NCBI GenBank assembly: GCA_017469955.1
Contig: JAFUFJ010000001.1
Coordinates: 1-37,282, forward strand
Length of the DNA: 37,282 nt
Source of the DNA: Prevotella sp.
GTDB lineage: Bacteria > Bacteroidota > Bacteroidia > Bacteroidales > Bacteroidaceae
Reading direction: 5' to 3'
Shown: positions 1,714 through 37,077 of the stretch, piece by piece
How positions within the stretch are numbered: position 1 is the stretch's first letter
How the letters are laid out: every line of letters begins with the position of its first letter
The notes under the pieces: model-generated
Databases searched by the model: none
Told to the model about the DNA's origin: nothing
What the model saw: the letters and a program-made list of their open reading frames with translations, nothing else
Program-made: the position numbers and the translations under genes

Positions 1714-3294
1714 ATGATCAGAAAACATTATCTGTCGGCAGCAATGGTTGTGGCGTTGTTGGCCGTCATTCAAGTGGCATTTGTGTCGTGTGGTAAAGGA
1801 AGTGATGACACGCGTTTAGTGATTATCACGTTTGATGGACTTCGTTGGCAGGAGCTGTTTAGCGGTGCAGACGAGGAACTTTTGGGAGATACACGTTTCG
1901 TTTCCAATCCCGAACAGGCAAAAGAACGCTTTTGGGCCGACACACCTGAGTCGCGTCGTGAACTGGTAGCACCTTTTCTATGGAGCTATGTACCTGAACA
2001 TGGCTATTTGATTGGCAACAAGAACAAGGACAGTCGTATGACGGTATCCAACACTTTGCGTTTTTCTTATCCCGGATATAGCGAGATGTTCTGCGGTTGG
2101 GCCGACGATGACCGCATCGTGTCCAACGATCCGATTCCCAACCCAAACACCAGCGTACTTGAGGTAGTCAACCGTGACTCACGCTATAAAGGCCAGGTCA
2201 TGATGCTCTCTTCGTGGGAGTCTATTCGCTATGCTGTCAATAATGACAGAGCAGGCATACCCGCCAGTTCGGCCCATGAGCCTTGCTATGCAGAGACTCC
2301 CACCGCTCAAATCGTGCAGGAGATAGACGAATACATCACTGCTGCCACCGATGACAGTGAGCGTGCTGATGTCATTACCTATGCCTTTGCCTTGGAAGTG
2401 CTCAAGAAAAAGCATCCAAAGGTGTTCTATGTCGGCTTTGGAGACACTGACGAATGGGCCCACGGAAGCAAGTATGACCGCTACCTGGAGGCGATAAAGA
2501 CGACCGACAAGTATATTAAGCGCATTGTGGAGACATGCGAGTCAGACCCGTTCTACAAGGGTAAGACCGTGTATATGCTCACATGTGACCACGGAAGAGG
2601 GCGCGGACCTATGTTTAGAACGCATGGTGCCGACGTACGCGGAGCCGAAGAAACGTGGTTCATTGCGTTCGGAAAAGGTATTCCTGCGTTGGGAGAGACC
2701 TCAGGAAACGGTCCTTTCTTCACCAAGCAGCTGTCGGCAAGCATCGCTTCTGTGCTTGGAGTTGAGTTCACTCCCGACAACGGAGTGGCTGTCGAACCTT
2801 TCGATCCTGAGTTTTATAAGGCGCCGGAACCCCCTAAAGCTGCAGCTTCGTTCAAAGCTGTGGAGGCGTCTCCGAAGGGCAGGGGGCTGCGATATGCCTA
2901 TAGCGAAGGCGACTTCATGAGCGTGAAGGAAGTCATTGCAGTGCCAGTCAAGGCCAGTGGCGTCACGCCAGTCTTCACGACGTCGATGAAACAGCGTGAA
3001 GATCACTTCGGACTTGTCTTCAAAGGACTGCTGAAAATCGACAAGACGGGGCTCTATCTGCTTTCGTTGGCATGCGACGATGGTGCCAAACTATGGGTTG
3101 ACGGCCAGCTGCTTTGGGACATAGACCGCGACGGAGGCGGCTTCAAGGAGGACTATTTTGAGTTTGAGTCGGGCTGTCATCGGGTGGAAGTGCAATATTT
3201 TGAGAACTATGGCGGCGAGACCATTGAACTTGGTCTCGTAGGCGAAGGCATCAATGTGGAGAACTTACCCGCCGAGATGCTTTATCATGAATAG
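1714..3294 (+). CDS. Lipoprotein phosphodiesterase/alkaline phosphatase-fold hydrolase with PA14-like domain
   Basis: The 526-residue protein begins with a hydrophobic signal ending in VSC (Cys27), a probable lipoprotein signal. Residues 35-350 show an alkaline phosphatase-superfamily metallohydrolase: ITFDGLRW with metal ligand Asp41, SYPGYSEMFCG with candidate nucleophile Ser123, GFGDTDEWAH with Asp244 and His250, TCDHGRG with Asp292/His293, and His304. This arrangement resembles type I phosphodiesterase/nucleotide pyrophosphatase enzymes. Residues about 420-515 look like a PA14-type module (GLYLLSLACDDGAKLWVDG), a fold often used for glycan binding. It is therefore likely an outer-membrane-linked enzyme that removes a phosphate- or sulfate-type ester from a glycan or nucleotide. 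The substrate is unknown. A strong terminator follows at 3344. Confidence 0.8.
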   Translation: MIRKHYLSAAMVVALLAVIQVAFVSCGKGSDDTRLVIITFDGLRWQELFSGADEELLGDTRFVSNPEQAKERFWADTPESRRELVAPFLWSYVPEHGYLIGNKNKDSRMTVSNTLRFSYPGYSEMFCGWADDDRIVSNDPIPNPNTSVLEVVNRDSRYKGQVMMLSSWESIRYAVNNDRAGIPASSAHEPCYAETPTAQIVQEIDEYITAATDDSERADVITYAFALEVLKKKHPKVFYVGFGDTDEWAHGSKYDRYLEAIKTTDKYIKRIVETCESDPFYKGKTVYMLTCDHGRGRGPMFRTHGADVRGAEETWFIAFGKGIPALGETSGNGPFFTKQLSASIASVLGVEFTPDNGVAVEPFDPEFYKAPEPPKAAASFKAVEASPKGRGLRYAYSEGDFMSVKEVIAVPVKASGVTPVFTTSMKQREDHFGLVFKGLLKIDKTGLYLLSLACDDGAKLWVDGQLLWDIDRDGGGFKEDYFEFESGCHRVEVQYFENYGGETIELGLVGEGINVENLPAEMLYHE

Positions 3295-3343
3295 TGCATT
3301 CGGTGCGGCTTGCCGGGCTGGAGTATGAGCCCGTCCGATGAGT

Positions 3344-3368
3344 AGGCGTAGCAGTGCTACGCCTTTTT
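3344..3368 (+). terminator. Rho-independent terminator after the phosphodiesterase gene
   Basis: A perfect 9-bp stem (AGGCGTAGC / GCTACGCCT) with a 3-nt loop is followed by five T. It lies 50 bp after the stop at 3294. Confidence 0.9.
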
Positions 3369-3471
3369 GTTGCTTGTGGTGATGTGTTTTCTGCCTTGTT
3401 TTCCCGGCATTAGTTTTCCTTTTTCCTTTTCCTGCCCCGCGTCCTGCCCCACATCGGCTGCCAGGGAGCCT

Positions 3472-3581
3472 CAGAAAGCTGCCCTTTCTGGTGTGTACAT
3501 CTTACGTGTATGGTTCATACATCTTGCTGGTATGGTTCATACATGTCATGTGTACGGAGCTGAAAACTTCGGTTTTTAGTA
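3472..3581. repeat. 22-bp palindromic array A (5 units)
   Basis: There are five consecutive 22-bp units, starting at 3472, 3494, 3516, 3538 and 3560. The first has arms CAGAAAG/CTTTCTG. The next three have the class with arms around TAC and GTA (CATAC/GTATG). The last has CTGAAAAC/GTTTTTAG closed by a TTCG loop. Palindrome centres fall near unit position 10. The array lies between the terminator at 3344 and the invertible element at 3619. It does not code for protein: 22 is not a multiple of 3 and the frames carry no family signal. Confidence 0.85.
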
Positions 3582-3618
3582 GAAAAGGTGACTGGGAAGT
3601 GTTAAAAAACACAAATAT

Positions 3619-3647
3619 TTTTCCGACTATCAACGATAGGAGGAAAA
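3619..3647 (+). repeat. Left 29-bp inverted repeat of the invertible element
   Basis: Exact reverse complement of 3854-3882. The core contains CCGACTATCAACGATAGGAG, bounded on both sides by A/T runs. Confidence 0.95.
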
Positions 3648-3648
3648 A

Positions 3649-3675
3649 CAAATGTTACACAAAATGTAACATTTG
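3649..3675. promoter_or_regulatory. Perfect dyad inside the invertible element
   Basis: CAAATGTTAC and GTAACATTTG form a perfect 10-bp inverted repeat around a 7-nt centre, directly beside the left 29-bp repeat. It could be an accessory protein site for inversion or an operator. A second, weaker pair TTTTACAT/ATGTAAAA lies at 3721-3762. The function is not known. Confidence 0.5.
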
Positions 3676-3799
3676 TTGTATATGGAAGTTTTTATTCCAT
3701 TGTAAATCAATAAGATATGATTTTACATCCAGTGCGGGTTCTGAATCACAAAAAATGTAAAAAGGCGAAGAAAACAAAAAGGAAAAAGTTAGGAAATGT

Positions 3800-3830
3800 T
3801 TTGGTAACTTCATAGAAATGAGTAACTTTG
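3800..3830 (+). promoter_or_regulatory. Promoter carried by the invertible element
   Basis: TTTG (3800-3803), a 19-bp spacer and TAACTTTG (3823-3830) give a textbook Bacteroidota sigma-ABfr promoter, followed by CAGCC. It points right. The distance to the BspA-like ATG is about 270 nt, and a terminator-like hairpin (4019-4051) lies between them. Confidence 0.8.
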
Positions 3831-3853
3831 CAGCCGAATTTGTGCAAAAGCAC

Positions 3854-3882
3854 TTTTCCTCCTATCGTTGATAGTCGGAAAA
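3854..3882 (-). repeat. Right 29-bp inverted repeat of the invertible element
   Basis: Exact reverse complement of 3619-3647. It begins 24 bp after the promoter -7 box at 3823-3830, so it would fall in the 5' leader of transcripts made in this orientation. Confidence 0.95.
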
Positions 3883-3969
3883 GCAGGCGACGATTTAGCC
3901 GGTGGCAACTGGAGCGTCGGTAGCGGCAAGACCGGAAAAGACAAGTTCGCGGGCGGTCAGATGCACTAA
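3883..3969 (+). pseudogene. Orphan C-terminal reading-frame fragment next to the inversion site
   Basis: Immediately after the right 29-bp repeat, an open frame of 28 codons encodes a Gly-, Asp- and Lys-rich tail (contains GGNWSVGSGKTGKDKF) and stops at TAA 3967-3969. No ATG lies upstream in frame before a stop at 3823. A start at TTG 3868 is possible but has no supporting ribosome site. The composition recalls the Gly/Asp-rich end of the small protein at 6162. It may be the remnant 3' end of a similar small gene whose 5' part was lost or swapped at the repeat. Flipping the element would not supply an ATG: in the inverted form the same frame meets TAA shortly upstream of the repeat. Confidence 0.3.
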
Positions 3970-4018
3970 GACTTACGCGATAGAAAAATGTTTTATTATT
4001 ATACTTGAATTTTTTTTC

Positions 4019-4051
4019 AAGCCTTCATGTCGTGAGACATCGAGGCTTTTT
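4019..4051 (+). terminator. Hairpin with T-run in the leader of the BspA-like gene
   Basis: AAGCCTTCATGTC pairs with GACATCGAGGCTT (11 of 13 positions) around GTGA and is followed by TTTTT. It would stop or attenuate transcripts from the invertible promoter before they reach 4099, or it ends the transcript of the fragment at 3883-3969. Confidence 0.65.
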
Positions 4052-4082
4052 GGTAGAAAATAGTGGATATACAATAAATTAA

Positions 4083-4090
4083 TAGATTTG
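4083..4090 (+). promoter_or_regulatory. Weak -7-like box just before the BspA-like gene
   Basis: TAGATTTG fits TAnnTTTG but lies only 8 bp before the ATG and has no -33 box at the right distance (nearest TTTG is 30 bp away). It is unlikely to be a main promoter and is listed because it bears on whether the gene depends on the invertible promoter. Confidence 0.2.
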
Positions 4091-4098
4091 ATAGAAGT

Positions 4099-6144
4099 AT
4101 GAAAATGAAGACATGTAAGAAGGAAATGGGGCTCGTGCGTCGCGCGTTGCTCTCATTGATGTGTATTGTCATCCCGTCAGTCGCTTGGGCTGAAGAGTGG
4201 AATGACGGCGTATTTGTGTATAACACGCAGTATACGCAGAGCACGGGAAAAGTCGTCACGCTGTCCGAAGGTGAGGTAGCCATCTCGCTTTACCTCGACT
4301 CCAAGATAGAGAACGTGAAGGATACAGTGTATTATACGCCCTCAAGTGGCGGTGGCCTTGGCACTTTCCCCAGCCAAACCGTGAAAAACAACAGTACAAT
4401 GGTTGGCCAAACGGTGACGTATAACAGCGTGAAGTATACCTTTCTTGGCAAGATTAATGATAGTGGATTTGTGAAAAATGCATATCTGGGCTCAGGAATG
4501 TCGGGTGCCTGTTTCTACTGTCGTGAGTATACTTTGAGTTATTCAGGTGTTGAAGACGTCGTGATTCCCGCCACAGTGGAGCACAATGGCACCACGTATA
4601 AGGTCGTAGCCATCCAGAAGTGGGGCTTCTGCTATTCGAAAGCAACGCTCAATCCCTATACTGTATGCTCCAAATACGCCGAAAACTACACCGCAGGGAA
4701 AGAGCAAAACCCTTCAGAAGCCAAATGGAGTTACAACAATATCAACGACCACAGCAATGACTACCTGAAGACAGTCACGTTTGAAAACCCCTCCAACCTG
4801 CGCTCTATCGGCGACTATGCCTTCATGAGCTGCAACAGCCTGGAGTCGGTTCAGATACCCAACACGGTGGAATATATGGGCGAAGGCATCTTCGAGTGCG
4901 ACAAGAAGCTGGCCGACGTGCGCTTCCAGACGGTCACTGACGAGGCTGATGAGAAGTTCGGACAGGTGCGTTTCACGACGATCAAGAACTGGACATTCTG
5001 GTTTTGCACCGGGCTTGAGTCGCTGGAGTTGCCCGACGGCATCACCACTATCGAGGGCACCTCTACCGGTGCAGCCATGCAATACATGACAAGCCTCACC
5101 TCGGTGCGCCTGCCTAACACGCTGACCACGGTGGGTCCCCACTTCCTTTGCTGCGCCCAGTCGCTGAAGACGCTTGTCGTTCCTGCCAGCGTTACTGACA
5201 TAGCAGGGGCCTGTTTCCATGGATGTGAGAACCTTTCGGAGGTCTATTTATTAGGTCAGGCAGCATCGTTGCAGAAGGCAGGTACGGGCAGCGACAACAC
5301 CTTTGGTGCCAACAATGCCTTCTGTATGAACGGAGTGAGCGACTGTACGTTCTACGTCACGAGCGACTATTACAGCTCTTATGCCAGCCATGGGGTATGG
5401 AAAGAGATTAAAGAGCCCAACTCTCACGGCAACAAGCTTTCGGAAATCAAGCCTGAAACGCGCCTGTTTGCTGCCGGAACATGGGTGACGGCCATCTTCC
5501 CCAACGGCGTGACAAACTATAAGTCGGACCCCAACGAACAGGGAACCGGCGGTTTCGGCGCCAATGCACGTGTGGCTCAGCTGACAAATGTCGAGGTAGA
5601 CTCGAAGAACTCGAACACCTATCACATGACCTTCACGCTGATCGACGGCGATGACATCCCCGCAGCCACGCCGGTAATGATATGCCCCAGTGCCGAGGGC
5701 AGCCATGAAATGTACACTGAAGCCCAGGCTGCCAGTGTCGATTTCAAGAAAGAAATGTCCAAGACTCATGCCGTGTTGAAGTCGGCCAGCAATGGTGCCA
5801 CGGTGTCGATGAACGGACAATATGTCGACTATACGCTGCTTCCCTGGGACTTCTACTTCAACAAGAGCAAGTTCTGGCGTGTGAGTACGTCTGCGAATGC
5901 TCCCAAGATTCGCCAATGCCGCTGCTATTGGTCGCTCAATGTCGACGGTATAAAGACTGATCCTGTCACACCGACGGCAGCCATCAAGAGCCGCCCTACG
6001 GACGTGAACCTGCTGGAAACCGACGCTGTCAGCCTCGTGGTCGACGGCATCTACGATCTGAACGGACGCAAGCTTGACATCCCTCAGTCGGCGCTGCCAC
6101 AGGGAATGTACATCGTGAACGGAAAGAAACTCATCGTTAAATAA
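4099..6144 (+). CDS. BspA-like leucine-rich repeat surface protein
   Basis: The 681-residue protein has a long charged N-region and a signal peptide ending near VAWAEE (about residue 31). Residues about 150-390 contain irregular LRR_5 (BspA-type) repeats, seen as LRSIGDYAFMSCNSLESVQI and later copies with the pattern LxxVxLPxTxTxVGxxxFxxCxxLxxL. A second domain (about 450-620) is unassigned. The C-terminus (LNGRKL...PQGMYIVNGKKLIVK) is the tail style found on other exported proteins here, probably a cell-surface sorting signal. BspA-type proteins bind host matrix or other bacteria; that role is inferred from the family. Upstream lies the putative invertible promoter, so its expression may be phase-variable. 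Start 4099 is preferred; ATG 4105 is an alternative. Confidence 0.85.
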   Translation: MKMKTCKKEMGLVRRALLSLMCIVIPSVAWAEEWNDGVFVYNTQYTQSTGKVVTLSEGEVAISLYLDSKIENVKDTVYYTPSSGGGLGTFPSQTVKNNSTMVGQTVTYNSVKYTFLGKINDSGFVKNAYLGSGMSGACFYCREYTLSYSGVEDVVIPATVEHNGTTYKVVAIQKWGFCYSKATLNPYTVCSKYAENYTAGKEQNPSEAKWSYNNINDHSNDYLKTVTFENPSNLRSIGDYAFMSCNSLESVQIPNTVEYMGEGIFECDKKLADVRFQTVTDEADEKFGQVRFTTIKNWTFWFCTGLESLELPDGITTIEGTSTGAAMQYMTSLTSVRLPNTLTTVGPHFLCCAQSLKTLVVPASVTDIAGACFHGCENLSEVYLLGQAASLQKAGTGSDNTFGANNAFCMNGVSDCTFYVTSDYYSSYASHGVWKEIKEPNSHGNKLSEIKPETRLFAAGTWVTAIFPNGVTNYKSDPNEQGTGGFGANARVAQLTNVEVDSKNSNTYHMTFTLIDGDDIPAATPVMICPSAEGSHEMYTEAQAASVDFKKEMSKTHAVLKSASNGATVSMNGQYVDYTLLPWDFYFNKSKFWRVSTSANAPKIRQCRCYWSLNVDGIKTDPVTPTAAIKSRPTDVNLLETDAVSLVVDGIYDLNGRKLDIPQSALPQGMYIVNGKKLIVK

Positions 6145-6440: not shown

Positions 6441-6487
6441 GCATGGAAAGACGGGCAGATATGCCGGCAGACAAGAGATGACAGGCC

Positions 6488-6597
6488 GAGAAAGCTATCC
6501 TTTCAGGGCGAGAATCCATAGACTTCTGGGTGAGAAAGGATAGCTTTCTGGAGGTTAACCCATAGACTTCTCGGGCTAAAGTCTTAGCTTTCTCGCC
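6488..6597. repeat. 22-bp palindromic array (5 units, GAAAG/CTTTC class)
   Basis: Units start at 6488, 6510, 6532, 6554 and 6576. Units 1 and 3 carry mutually reverse-complementary 15-nt cores (GAAAGCTATCCTTTC and GAAAGGATAGCTTTC). Units 2 and 4 share CCATAGACTTCT. None of the TAC/GTA class is present. The rest of 6366-6743 shows only the terminator at 6396. Confidence 0.8.
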
Positions 6598-13688: not shown

Positions 13689-13822
13689 AGAAAAACTATT
13701 GACACTCTCGCCTTTCTTCCCCAAGAAAACGCGGCTGTTGCGGTATGAACCCCCTCCCGAAGGCTTCGGCTTCCCGTCGGGTCTGCTGCCGGCAGTCGCC
13801 GTAAAGCATGAAAAAACTCGGC

Positions 13823-13910
13823 CGTACATCTTAGGTGTATCGTCCATACATGTGTCTGGTATGCCTCATACATCTATGATGTACGGCCGAGAAAGGATAG
13901 CTTTCCCGGC
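13823..13910. repeat. 22-bp palindromic array C (4 units, mixed class)
   Basis: Units start at 13823, 13845, 13867 and 13889. The first three are of the TAC/GTA class (unit 3 has TACATCTATGATGTA). The fourth is GAGAAAG/CTTTCCC-like, in unbroken 22-bp register. It lies between two minus-strand genes, downstream of the C10 protease gene. Confidence 0.87.
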
Positions 13911-13978: not shown

Positions 13979-16900
13979 CTATTTGATGACAACCTTCTTG
14001 CCTCCCACAATAAACACGCCCTTTGACGGACGTTCTACGCGCTGGCCTTGCAGGTTGTATGCCTCTGATGCTTCAGCCTTTTCGCCCTTGACTTTCTTGA
14101 TGCCGGTCAGGAACTCGTCGCAGATGACAATCTTCTCGGCACTTTCTTCCTTTGGAAGCTTGCTGACGAAGTAGGCACGCATGCCGGTTACCTGGCTTGC
14201 ACGTGAGGCAGGTTCGAACGCTGTGCCGTCGGAATTGACGACATAGACCCCGCTCAGGCGGTCGGTAATCCACGTTCCGTAGAAATTATAGGCGTCGGAA
14301 ACCACCTTGGGCTGGTTGTCTGTCGTCGACGGCATGGTGACTTCTTCAGCAGACATCACGATGGGCTTGCCCACATAGGCAAACGGCACGGCCATGACAT
14401 ACGGCGTCTGCGCAAGTATCTTGTCGACAAAGTCGAACTTCACAGTATTGTCATCTTCCAGATAAGCGAACTCTTTCAGATACAGGTCCTTTTCCTCTTC
14501 GTCGGCCTTCCACCGCAGTTCTGTGCCTTCACAGGCAACACTTGCCGGCTCAAACGGCAGGTTCAAGGCCGTCCAGTTGTCTTTTCCTGTAGAGCCTTTG
14601 GCAAAGGTGCGGGTGAAAGTGACCTTGTCGGCCGTGAACTCCATGGGCGAAACATAGGCCAATCCGTCCTGAAGATGGATCTCTTCGGCATGCTTTCCGC
14701 GCACGACATTAAGCCCGTCAAGGCCTTCAATCTCAGCATCTTCGTCAATGAAGTAGATGGTGTTCTTGTAGCCTGGGTCTTGAATACGGGCTGAATGGAT
14801 GCCTCGCAGGTCGACGGCAGCCGAGGAATTCGGCGTCTGGACGGTCAAAGATGAGGCCTTACCCAGAATCTGTCCGTTGGCCATGTAGAGCAATATGCCC
14901 TCCTTCAGGTCGCCCATACGCGTAAGTCCGGAAATGCTCTCGTTGGTATTGAGGTTGGAAACGCTGATGCCAAAGGTGCGGTTGGTCTCTTTTCCCGTGA
15001 AAATGTAGCTGAGTGTCGACGAGCTTCCTGCCGGAATCTGATAGTGAAGGTTCGCTGCACCGTTTGTCCAGTAGATGTTGTCTTCTATGTTTTTCCGCCA
15101 GAGCTGTACCTTGATTGTGCCGTCATAGTCCTCAGTGCCGGTGTTTTTCAGGGTGAGCTGTCCCGAGATGACTCCTCCGTAGATGTTGTTACCCTCCTTG
15201 TTGGTGATCTTGTTGGATACCAGTGAAAGGATATATCCGGTGGCGGCAGTGTTGCCTTTCTTGGTGATCTCCACCTCACTCTCGCCGATGACCGCGCTTC
15301 CTTGGCTGTTGGTAGCGACCCATACGTGCCATGTGCCAGTCTGTTCAGCCTCGGTGTTGAAGTAGAACGAGATGGTGTTTGGCTTGTCTTTCGTAAGACT
15401 GACGGCCGAACGGCATGCCGCTGTGCCCTTGACATCGGTCATGCTTGCAAAGAAATAGACCGTTCCGAAGTAGTCGCCTACGCTGTTTGCAAACGTGACG
15501 TCTACCGTCTGCTTGCTGCCAGCCTTCTGATCGCCGGTGAAAACGATATCCTGTACGGTCAGTCCGGTTGAGGAATTAATCCTTTGCGCATTGACATTTC
15601 CGTCGGCGTCTACATTCACTTCAATCCATTCTGAACCCATGATGAAGGATGTATTCCAGGCAGAATAGCCCTTCACTCGTCCGATAGGTGCCACTTTATA
15701 GGTGCCGGGGTCGAGGCCTTCGATGATGTATGTGCGGGTGGATGTTGTGTTGTTGGCCAGAGAAAACTCATCAGTCTGACCGATAGGCATGAAGGTTCCG
15801 TCCTCTTTTTGGAAACCTATGCCGGTCTCAAAGGTATTCAATGAGCCGGTCTGGTTGCGGTATCCTGACCGTATTGCGGGCTTTCCGTCCATCTCAGTCA
15901 GCGTGACACTGTTGATGGTCATCTTGAGTTGTGTGTCGTCAATGCCGTCGGGCAGCTTCACATTCAGCATGGCATACTGGGTCATGGAGTAGCCGTCACT
16001 GCTGCTGCTGGCTCCGATGCCGGTGTTGTCGCCGGGGTTTAACACGTCGATACGGAAGTATCCGTCGCTACTTCCGCCCCAACCCCAGTTAACGTGGAAC
16101 AGTCCTTCACCATCATATCCGTCGACAACGAAGGCATGACCTCCACCGGTTGAGTGGCCTGAATAGCTGATAGGATGGCCTGCTGCGAGGTCGTTGTAGA
16201 GCATATCGTGCCACTCTTCGTGGGTATAGCCGGTCCTTGATGCGGCTAAACCGCTGTCGTCGAAGCCGAAGATGTCTTTGTATACGGTCATGGCCTGGCT
16301 GTGTGAAGCGCCTGAAGAGGCCCCGTAGCCCATCTTGATGGCCTGTCCTACCATGAGCATCAGCTTGGCCACTGCGTCTTTTTCCTCGTCGGTGTTGGCC
16401 GAAGTGTAGATGTCGCACATGTGCTCCCAGTCGATTTCTTCTCCGGCATTGATGCGTGGCAGCGAGACAACGATGGTGGTGTCTTTCTGGTATTCGTTGC
16501 CTTCGTCGTCGAGACGCGTCACTTTTGTCTTGTAAGTGTTGGAGTGGGTGCTGATGCTGCGTGCGATTTTATTGGGGAATTTCCAGTAGTTGATGACTTG
16601 TGCGATGGCAGTTGCCACGCATCCTGTTGCCGAATGGTCGCCGTGTCCGCCGTCGGTGGTGTAGTATTCGGGGCACATTCTGTTGTAGGGGTCTCCCTGG
16701 TTCCACTTGCTTTTCATCAGCGGATTGATGGCTCTGCGCACGGGTTTGATGCGTCTTGGCGCCTTTGCTTTGTCGAGTTGGCTGGTCTGGATGTTGTTGT
16801 CGTCCATCCATTTGATCTGGTCGGCATAGCCTTGCAGGAATGAAAGCATGTTTTCGGGCATGTTTTCGGCATCGAAAGTGCCGTGGTCGCAATAGCCAAG

Positions 16901-17170
16901 TACCTGTTCGGTGCGGTCGTCTCCCGACATGATGACGAAGCCTTGCTCCTGGCCTACGTTGAAAACGTAGTAGTAAGCCTGGTCGGAAGTCTGCGAGACT
17001 TTTCGAGGAGCGCGGTAGGCAGTCTTCGCCGTTGTCATCATGACTCCTTTCGAAGCCATGAACTCGCGGGCCTGACTCAAGGCCTGTTCTCTGCTTACTG
17101 GGCCGGCCCACAGGTTGAGTCCTGCCAACAGACCGATTAAGATGCATGTAGTCTTTTTCATTTTAGACAT
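13979..17170 (-). CDS. C10 family cysteine protease (streptopain/PrtT-like), secreted
   Basis: The 1063-residue protein has a signal peptide (ends near LNLWAG), an inhibitory Spi-type propeptide (about 24-125) and a C10 papain-like domain. Catalytic Cys184 lies in ATGCVATAIAQVINYW and His345 in GGGHAFVVDGYDG, followed by FHVNWGWGGSSDGYF. Residues 400-1000 form beta-rich adhesin-like segments, and the C-terminus (YNLQGQRVERPSKGVFIVGG) is a Bacteroidota surface-sorting-style tail. Relatives such as streptopain and PrtT cut host proteins. It is likely made as a zymogen and exported. A promoter is visible at 17232-17262. ATG 17170 is used; ATG 17161 (MKKTTC) is equally possible. Confidence 0.9.
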   Translation of the reverse strand: MSKMKKTTCILIGLLAGLNLWAGPVSREQALSQAREFMASKGVMMTTAKTAYRAPRKVSQTSDQAYYYVFNVGQEQGFVIMSGDDRTEQVLGYCDHGTFDAENMPENMLSFLQGYADQIKWMDDNNIQTSQLDKAKAPRRIKPVRRAINPLMKSKWNQGDPYNRMCPEYYTTDGGHGDHSATGCVATAIAQVINYWKFPNKIARSISTHSNTYKTKVTRLDDEGNEYQKDTTIVVSLPRINAGEEIDWEHMCDIYTSANTDEEKDAVAKLMLMVGQAIKMGYGASSGASHSQAMTVYKDIFGFDDSGLAASRTGYTHEEWHDMLYNDLAAGHPISYSGHSTGGGHAFVVDGYDGEGLFHVNWGWGGSSDGYFRIDVLNPGDNTGIGASSSSDGYSMTQYAMLNVKLPDGIDDTQLKMTINSVTLTEMDGKPAIRSGYRNQTGSLNTFETGIGFQKEDGTFMPIGQTDEFSLANNTTSTRTYIIEGLDPGTYKVAPIGRVKGYSAWNTSFIMGSEWIEVNVDADGNVNAQRINSSTGLTVQDIVFTGDQKAGSKQTVDVTFANSVGDYFGTVYFFASMTDVKGTAACRSAVSLTKDKPNTISFYFNTEAEQTGTWHVWVATNSQGSAVIGESEVEITKKGNTAATGYILSLVSNKITNKEGNNIYGGVISGQLTLKNTGTEDYDGTIKVQLWRKNIEDNIYWTNGAANLHYQIPAGSSSTLSYIFTGKETNRTFGISVSNLNTNESISGLTRMGDLKEGILLYMANGQILGKASSLTVQTPNSSAAVDLRGIHSARIQDPGYKNTIYFIDEDAEIEGLDGLNVVRGKHAEEIHLQDGLAYVSPMEFTADKVTFTRTFAKGSTGKDNWTALNLPFEPASVACEGTELRWKADEEEKDLYLKEFAYLEDDNTVKFDFVDKILAQTPYVMAVPFAYVGKPIVMSAEEVTMPSTTDNQPKVVSDAYNFYGTWITDRLSGVYVVNSDGTAFEPASRASQVTGMRAYFVSKLPKEESAEKIVICDEFLTGIKKVKGEKAEASEAYNLQGQRVERPSKGVFIVGGKKVVIK

Positions 17171-17262: not shown

Positions 17263-17347
17263 GAAAATGAGCAAAAAAATGTGGCTTCCTGAGCTTTTTT
17301 GTGGTGTACCATCTCTGTTAACGTTGCCGAAGGCCATGAATGTGGTC

Positions 17348-17435
17348 CATACACCTATGATGTACACTTCATACATCTCGCTGGTATGGTTCATACATCT
17401 ATGATGTATGCATGAGAAAGGGTAGCTTTCTCGGC
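17348..17435. repeat. 22-bp palindromic array D (4 units, mixed class)
   Basis: Units start at 17348, 17370, 17392 and 17414. Unit 3 has 8-bp perfect arms CATACATC/GATGTATG around TAT. Unit 4 has 7-bp arms GAGAAAG/CTTTCTC. The layout (three TAC/GTA units then one GAAAG/CTTTC unit, then GCGTGAAG) is the same as array C. It lies in the divergent region between the C10 protease and der. Confidence 0.88.
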
Positions 17436-17531
17436 GTGAAGGCTTTCAGTGTCGGACGGCTTGGCGGTCTCTTCAAGCCGTGTCTGCTCACCCTGAAATG
17501 CTTGAATGGTTTCTCATCGCACCCGCCTGTT

Positions 17532-24883: not shown

Positions 24884-24973
24884 GCGTAGAGGGAGCCGGT
24901 TGTGCATGGTTTTCGCCACGAGTGCAGAGCAGGACCGTCGCCATACCGGCGCTGACGGCTTTCGGATGTGAAC

Positions 24974-25083
24974 CATACCAAGCACATGTATGAGGAATAC
25001 ATGATAGGTGTATCGTTCATACATCTGCTTGGTATGCCGTTGAAAGGTCAGCTTTTTTGCCGGGAAGGCTATGGCTTTTTGCC
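24974..25083. repeat. 22-bp palindromic array E (5 units, mixed class)
   Basis: Units start at 24974, 24996, 25018, 25040 and 25062. The first three are of the TAC/GTA class. Units 4 and 5 resemble the GAAAG/CTTTC class (GAAAGGTCAGCTTTTTTGCC and GGAAGGCTATGGCTTTTTGC). The 19-bp cores of units 1 and 3 are reverse complements with one mismatch. The array sits between converging lptB and the GH2-GH43 gene. Confidence 0.85.
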
Positions 25084-36857: not shown

Positions 36858-37077
36858 GAGAAAGCTATGGGTTCAAGTCGAGAAAGGGTAAGGTTCTGGG
36901 TGAGAAAGGATAGAGTTTTGGGGCAGAACCCATAGACTTCTGAGGCTGTAAGCTTAGCTTTCCCGCCGTCATGGCCCGGTATACCCGCCTGTACACGTCG
37001 CTGGTATGCTTGATACCAGGCACATGTATGCCCCGTACATCATAGGTGTATGGAGCATATTCCGTAGGTGTACGGCC
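36858..37077. repeat. 22-bp palindromic array F (10 units, both classes)
   Basis: Ten units start at 36858, 36880, 36902, 36924, 36946, 36968, 36990, 37012, 37034 and 37056. The first five are of the GAAAG/CTTTC and CCATAGACTTCT kind, the sixth is transitional, and the last four are of the TAC/GTA class. All share one 22-bp register. It is the longest array in the window and lies between the TonB-domain gene and the promoter at 37161. The rest of 36694-37251 holds the terminator at 36793. Confidence 0.88.

Follow-up and report, generated by a model that had tools for sequence, protein, structure and literature searches.

A putative promoter inverton before a BspA-type protein gene of Prevotella sp., with three related units and a candidate trans-acting tyrosine recombinase

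Promoter inversions involving Tsr19/BF2766 of Bacteroides fragilis were reportedly treated by Roche-Hakansson in 2007. According to the accessible part of PMC4747536, Tsr19/BF2766 inverts two promoters, one local and one distant, with links to outer membrane proteins and extracellular polysaccharide, and the serine enzyme Mpi of the same species inverts 13 regions; Mpi promoters are also described in the accessible part of PMC12632263. A survey ties inverton groups to invertase groups by proximity and gives the inverted repeats of invertons as 10-40 nt long (PMC11892184, accessible part), and Prevotella species appear in a table of invertible-promoter classes in the accessible part of PMC8748976. 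A literature search found no paper on tyrosine-recombinase invertible promoters in Prevotella and no paper joining BspA with invertible phase variation.

The locus considered here lies in a 37,282-nt stretch of a Prevotella sp. genome (the window). It is very probably an inverton of a familiar kind, with a few uncommon parts that recur among its sister units, in a genus with species already listed for invertible promoters, and it appears to work like the Tsr19-type trans-acting promoter invertons. Likened by description only, from the accessible part of PMC4747536, the two have in common a tyrosine recombinase, short promoter segments, a distant site and surface products; Tsr19, however, lies beside one of its two targets, whereas the candidate enzyme found here, encoded on contig C9, lies beside none of four. 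The common dyad, the leader hairpin and the locus-specific arm centres presented below were not found in the Tsr19 descriptions in that part of the paper. With Mpi, as far as the accessible texts describe it, the likeness consists of one master enzyme, many distant promoter invertons and surface diversity, and the leader hairpin recalls the UpxY/UpxZ antitermination that serves there as a second control layer. Mpi differs in being a serine enzyme, a type not found here (PF00239, 75.6%-complete genome), and the targets here are proteins rather than capsule loci.

Anatomy of the locus

The locus comprises the following features (window coordinates):

1714-3294, plus strand: upstream gene, 526 aa, with PA14 and Metalloenzyme matches
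3474-3618, plus strand: left flank common to the window and the C10 unit, collinear (85.6% over 174 bp including the left arm)
3619-3647, plus strand: left, promoter-distal arm, 29/29 complementary to 3854-3882
3648-3853, no strand: putative invertible segment, 206 bp; the C10 unit has it in the opposite direction, with the flanks collinear
3653-3671, no strand: dyad TGTTACA-N5-TGTAACA, separated by 5 bp from the promoter-distal arm
3800-3830, plus strand: predicted promoter, -33 TTTG (3800-3803), 19-nt spacer, -7 TAACTTTG (3823-3830), 23 bp from the right arm
3854-3882, minus strand: right, promoter-proximal arm, 29/29 complementary to the left arm
3987-4060, plus strand: target-side leader element, an AT-rich tract and a hairpin with a GUGA loop and a T5 run behind it (pattern match 4019-4050)
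4099-6144, plus strand: target gene, a 681-aa BspA-type leucine-rich-repeat (LRR_5) protein with a signal-peptide-like start (by eye)

The arms are perfect complements over all 29 positions, separated by 206 nt, and the original prediction had placed them correctly; such a repeat length around a short segment falls within the 10-40 nt range of invertons. Among perfect inverted repeats with a gap of up to 1 kb, the longest in the window measured 29 nt, and 100 first-order Markov sequences built from the window reached 11-16 nt; with a control maximum of 16 bp, a chance origin was ruled out. The prediction had also held that a complete outward promoter faces the BspA-like gene, and this agrees with what was found: the element TTTG-N19-TAACTTTG lies inside the segment and is directed rightwards, towards 4099-6144. 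By the usual consensus, we take this element to be of the Bacteroidota promoter type; a sigma-70 scan of 3300-4300 gave no sites. The present orientation of 3648-3853 is read as the ON state, in which the right arm would fall in the 5' untranslated leader of the target; after a flip the promoter would be directed at the upstream gene from its 3' end, and orientation would set target transcription on or off.

Three parts of the locus had been overlooked by the original prediction, namely the internal symmetry of the arm, the dyad at 3653-3671 and the hairpin at 4019-4050. The window arm is a near-palindrome on its own, with the left arm composed of TTTTCCGACTA-TCAACGA-TAGGAGGAAAA; in our own division, the arms may be read as tyrosine-recombinase core sites made of two 11-bp half sites and a 7-bp centre. 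The hairpin, AAGCCTT-CATGTC-GTGA-GACATC-GAGGCTTTTT, lies between the promoter and the gene, and its loop presumably belongs to the GNRA type. In the stretch between the right arm and the hairpin (3883-3969), a coding-like stretch with no clear start was seen by eye.

The intergenic regions of the window contain two families of dispersed repeats. Repeats of the TACATC..GTATGGTTCATACATC type occupy 3496-3539, 13817-13891, 17338-17396, 24969-25013 and 37004-37062; the family, which looks REP-like, also has a member in the C10 unit's left flank. The outer left flank of the locus (about 3496-3539) is thus part of a dispersed repeat; for the inner flank from 3560 (3560-3647), the C10 unit is the sole genome match as a left flank (blastn). 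The second family, with GAGAAAGCTATCCTTTC, is found at 6482-6549 and 17416-17438 of the window and in the flanks of the C12 and C4 units, with about 108 bp common to these two units (78%), and a similar stretch was seen by eye downstream of the C9 recombinase gene. Elsewhere in the window, 13979-17170 (minus strand) encodes a 1063-aa cysteine peptidase of the C10 family with a Spi-type inhibitor domain.

Four units in two orientations

The genome containing the window (G000; 2.26 Mb in 22 contigs, 75.6% complete) was searched for further units by blastn and by patterns. The suggestion of several loci with the same repeat agrees with what was found, namely four inverton-type units, that of the window included, in two orientations relative to homologous flanks. 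The other three are:

C10:11294-11556: arms of 29 bp with one mismatch, gap 205 bp
C4:46905-47167: arms of 29 bp with no mismatch, gap 205 bp
C12:35499-35762: arms of 31 bp with no mismatch, gap 202 bp

The arms are near-identical across the four units, and the middle of the segment is poorly conserved. A pairwise blastn comparison of the window and the C10 unit aligned the left flank on the plus strand (174 bp, 85.6%), the segment on the minus strand (267 bp, 74.2%) and the target-side element again on the plus strand (78 bp, 87.2%); the segment is reversed between collinear homologous flanks, so both orientations exist among paralogous loci. Between the window and the C4 unit, the segment likewise aligned on the minus strand (274 bp, 70.1%) and the target-side element on the plus strand (58 bp, 87.9%). 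With the hairpin taken as the target side, the promoters of the window and C12 units point towards the target and those of the C10 and C4 units away from it, and in all six unit pairs this arrangement agrees with the strands on which segment and hairpin align. The evidence for inversion is thus a comparison of paralogous loci, not of one locus in two states, and from it we infer that the segments flip in this organism.

The TAnnTTTG box lies 23 bp from one arm in 4/4 units, with a TTTG 18-19 nt upstream of it. As palindromes, the arms of the four units surpass at least 296 of 300 shuffled sequences, and they can be divided as 11-7-11 with an asymmetric centre of 3 nt. The central three bases are equal in both arms within each unit (AAC, ACC, GCC and AGT) and different in all four units. 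Recombination by tyrosine recombinases needs a matching overlap; centres matched within a unit and distinct between units are expected if strand exchange requires matching centres. Palindromic arms with locus-specific centres would thus be fitting for tyrosine-recombinase sites, and the centres may stop the units from recombining with one another. In the left arms of the C10 and C4 units (C10:11294-11322 and C4:46905-46933), the palindrome extends 4 bases beyond the arm on each side (17/17 pairs), which is not so in the window and C12 units.

Within the segment, 5 bp separate the dyad from the promoter-distal arm (17 bp in the C12 unit), and with up to one mismatch the dyad occurs at four places in the genome, one per unit (two exact, two with one mismatch); it is a possible accessory recombination or regulator site. 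The hairpin is present on the target side of 4/4 units and at four places in the genome (blastn, and a pattern search with up to three mismatches); the same pattern search found none in 79 other genomes. Predicted folding energies of the four copies range from -13.5 to -19.2 kcal/mol, with z-scores between -3.0 and -4.4; each copy is more stable than at least 199 of 200 shuffled sequences, and each ends in T4-5. The element resembles an intrinsic terminator or an attenuator, and it may act as the latter; the copy at 4019-4050 was not among the hits of a terminator scan. A search of 3300-4300 for known RNA families gave one sub-threshold snoRNA model (23.7 bits, cut-off 55), which we attribute to chance, and the PF02357 profile (the NusG/UpxY antiterminator partner) gave no matches, missing the expected housekeeping gene too. 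The stretch from arm to hairpin is little conserved, with only the C12 and C4 units aligning through it (70.6% over 136 columns including arm and hairpin).

The gene starts 48 nt past the hairpin in the window and 52 nt past it in the C10 unit, whose 1033-aa target protein matches the InlB repeat weakly, below the cut-off. At the C4 unit, a 73-aa ORF (from 47354 on) comes first on the target side, followed by a 778-aa protein without Pfam match; the short ORF sits between the leader hairpin and the larger gene. The 1033-aa and 778-aa proteins were each compared to the window target; each shares with it a C-terminal tail, aligned over 31 columns in the former (E 4e-06) and over 46 in the latter (E 1e-04), and outside this tail they are mostly dissimilar to it. 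The tail resembles a Bacteroidota secretion tail. The C12 unit is situated between the 3' ends of apparent tadA and pyrH genes (named by eye from translations), with no large ORF on its target side; in C12:35397-35762 the promoter, arm and hairpin have the same direction, with no large ORF behind. This unit is possibly a phase-variable small RNA or an orphan unit.

An arm search of 249 same-genus genomes, with up to one mismatch, revealed the arms in only one, G000 itself. In the genome_contigs set, a scan gave one stretch with a single palindrome and no second arm among the matches listed, and in the viral_contigs set there were none; either scan may omit records of this genome or near ones.

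The candidate recombinase and its relatives

Five PF00589 proteins were found in the genome, all on contigs other than that of the window, and the serine recombinase profile PF00239 gave no match in this 75.6%-complete assembly while detecting proteins in 10 of 14 control genomes. The window accordingly gave no match to either family, in line with the original prediction. That prediction had left the choice between a serine and a tyrosine invertase acting from elsewhere. The tyrosine alternative gained support from a candidate with inverton-linked relatives, and the serine, Mpi-like one gained none, with zero PF00239 matches in the genome at its present completeness. The candidate is:

C9:49769-50710: recombinase P0001, 313 aa, with SAM-like and catalytic domains and without an arm-binding match

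The gene stands alone among neighbours that look housekeeping by eye, and there is no inverton and no recognisable arm beside it. Searches against PDB gave weak matches to XerC/XerD-type chains. Tyrosine recombinases canonically have a first catalytic arginine and an HxxR motif; in the C9 enzyme the canonical arginine is missing and YxxR takes the place of HxxR, which is the same in 18/18 aligned homologues, inverton-linked ones included, and 7/18 have an arginine three residues earlier. Of the remaining PF00589 enzymes, C4:20409-21323 scores as XerC/D-like, those on C1 and C12 have arm-binding domains, and that on C6 lies beside an apparent restriction cluster (by eye); in the tree, the C1, C6 and C12 enzymes are placed apart from the C9 enzyme and its homologues.

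Matches to the C9 enzyme at E ≤ 1e-30 were obtained in 44 of 100 same-genus genomes (its own included); the strongest non-self match is 46% identical, and none of the listed matches exceeds 47%. At 1e-75, there was no match in 247 other same-genus genomes, with at most nine candidates per genome scored among the matches listed, which accords with the absence of the arms from 248 genomes. On plasmids, 76 records matched the enzyme, all below 60% identity.

Twenty homologue loci were examined, each in a different genome; the genomes were taken out of 43, besides G000, that contain a homologue (E ≤ 1e-30). Two with in-frame stops (L069 and L079) were omitted from the protein alignment and the tree. 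At 8/20 loci (L062, L065, L066, L072, L074, L075, L078 and L080), an inverted-repeat unit follows the 3' end of the recombinase match at a distance of 5-344 bp, with a gap of 149-168 bp and with TAnnTTTG in the loop in 7/8. The arm is palindromic beyond at least 292 of 300 shuffles in 7/8 linked units, the exception being L066 (76/300, no better than chance). The remaining 12 loci have no linked inverton of such type; two of these have broken frames, and L070 ends 57 bp past the match. Other repeats were seen nearby at L069, L071 and L081. These cis-linked invertons resemble the window locus in the promoter box (7/8), the palindromic arms (7/8) and the LRR_5 neighbour of L062, and differ from it in directly following the recombinase.

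L072 and L074 (genomes G080 and G079) contain the same recombinase, with flanks 94.6% and 96.3% identical and the segment between them reversed (95.0%, 222 bp), so segments beside members of the C9 enzyme group do invert. The genome of the window contains, as in the Tsr19 case, a tyrosine recombinase, one with inverton-linked relatives. L062, the best homologue, has an inverton adjoining a 692-aa LRR_5 (BspA-type) protein on its target side, and the invertons of L072 and L074 precede a NusG-like gene. The respective regions, L072 10156-11133 and L074 10423-11398, present a promoter-type inverton in opposite orientations before that gene. The genes adjoining the invertons of L075 and L080 encode an SNF2/PLD helicase-type protein and a DUF6079 protein and may belong to restriction or defence. 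In G008 and G060, where the pattern fits exactly, exact arm matches occur only at the recombinase-linked unit; one extra match with one mismatch is on another G008 contig.

Competing readings and significance

The original reading of the window locus as an invertible promoter is strengthened by the four units, their two orientations and a candidate trans-acting tyrosine recombinase with relatives beside invertons, and we hold with high confidence that the locus is a promoter inverton. The flipping enzyme is very likely a tyrosine recombinase, and we consider likely the reading as a whole, in which such an enzyme, probably that of C9, flips the promoter inverton and acts in trans on four units. 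The recombinase would recombine the 29-bp arms across their centres and flip the 206-bp segment; in the present orientation, the promoter would drive the BspA-like surface-protein gene through a leader with the right arm and the hairpin, and in the other it would point towards the 3' end of the upstream gene, leaving the target off. The units served would be three before large predicted secreted proteins and one without a gene. Against this reading stand the lack of an inverton or arm adjoining the C9 gene, the 12/20 homologue loci without a linked inverton of such type, the L066 palindrome at chance level, the departures from the canonical catalytic residues (alike in all 18 aligned homologues), the C12 unit without a large ORF on its target side and the fact that the left-flank similarity between the window and C10 units comes in part from a dispersed repeat; moreover, with the genome 75.6% complete, another invertase could be missing.

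The last point bears on the identity of the enzyme. The lone 313-aa C9 recombinase is the best invertase candidate and, with moderate confidence, the flipper, and we infer that it may act at the four units. An inverton flipped by another enzyme, encoded in the missing quarter of the genome, XerD-like, or the integrase of a mobile element, is possible though less probable. Besides the incompleteness of the assembly, the absence of an arm-like site next to the C9 gene and the four further PF00589 proteins speak for it; the XerC/D-like scoring of C4:20409-21323, the arm-binding domains of the C1 and C12 enzymes and the separate position of the C1, C6 and C12 enzymes in the tree speak against it. 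The inverton-linked enzymes among the C9 homologues point the same way, but their grouping with C9 is partly built in, since the homologues examined were gathered with the C9 enzyme, alone of the five PF00589 proteins, as the query.

Other readings dispense with a dedicated promoter switch. It is doubtful that the leader RNA itself is the product, with phase-variable small-RNA genes ending at the hairpin and surface genes reached by read-through: the C12 promoter, arm and hairpin with no large ORF behind them and the stable, T-ended hairpin in four copies would suit this, but in 3/4 units the hairpin is followed by a gene for a large predicted secreted protein, at 48 nt (window) and 52 nt (C10) or behind the 73-aa ORF (C4), the arm-to-hairpin stretch is little conserved, and the terminator scan left the hairpin unflagged. 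A MITE-like non-autonomous element with terminal inverted repeats and an incidental promoter, which four dispersed copies and a C12 copy without target gene might suggest, is very improbable. No target-site duplication is visible by eye at any of the 4 units, as the prediction had stated for the window, and the conserved parts reach outside the arms, with the C10-common left flank and the four-unit hairpin both lying beyond them, which together weaken the mobile-element explanation, as had been anticipated; a MITE or insertion element would be expected to show such duplications and homology that stops at the repeats. Moreover, 4/4 units retain the promoter box at 23 bp from the arm while the middle diverges, and the central triplets are locus-specific. 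Hardly probable at all is a fixed promoter between regulator-binding palindromes, with the arms as operators: each arm is near-palindromic alone, but operators have no need for an exact 29-bp match within a locus together with locus-specific centres, and the segment is reversed between collinear flanks.

The promoter inverton flipped by a tyrosine recombinase may be extended, tentatively and at a strength that makes it rather unlikely, to a species-private regulon of four invertons and one unlinked tyrosine recombinase, in which the triplets would serve as barcodes, allowing each unit to be flipped but preventing exchange between units, the dyad would gate recombination or transcription from one arm, the hairpin would provide a second control and the C12 unit would make just a small RNA, which may act on the others. 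If the inverton reading is true, at least three dissimilar predicted surface proteins would be switched by one enzyme, giving a mixed population from one clone, and the four units would be a natural test of how one recombinase serves several sites without chromosome scrambling; the dyad and the leader hairpin would mark two further parts of the switch.
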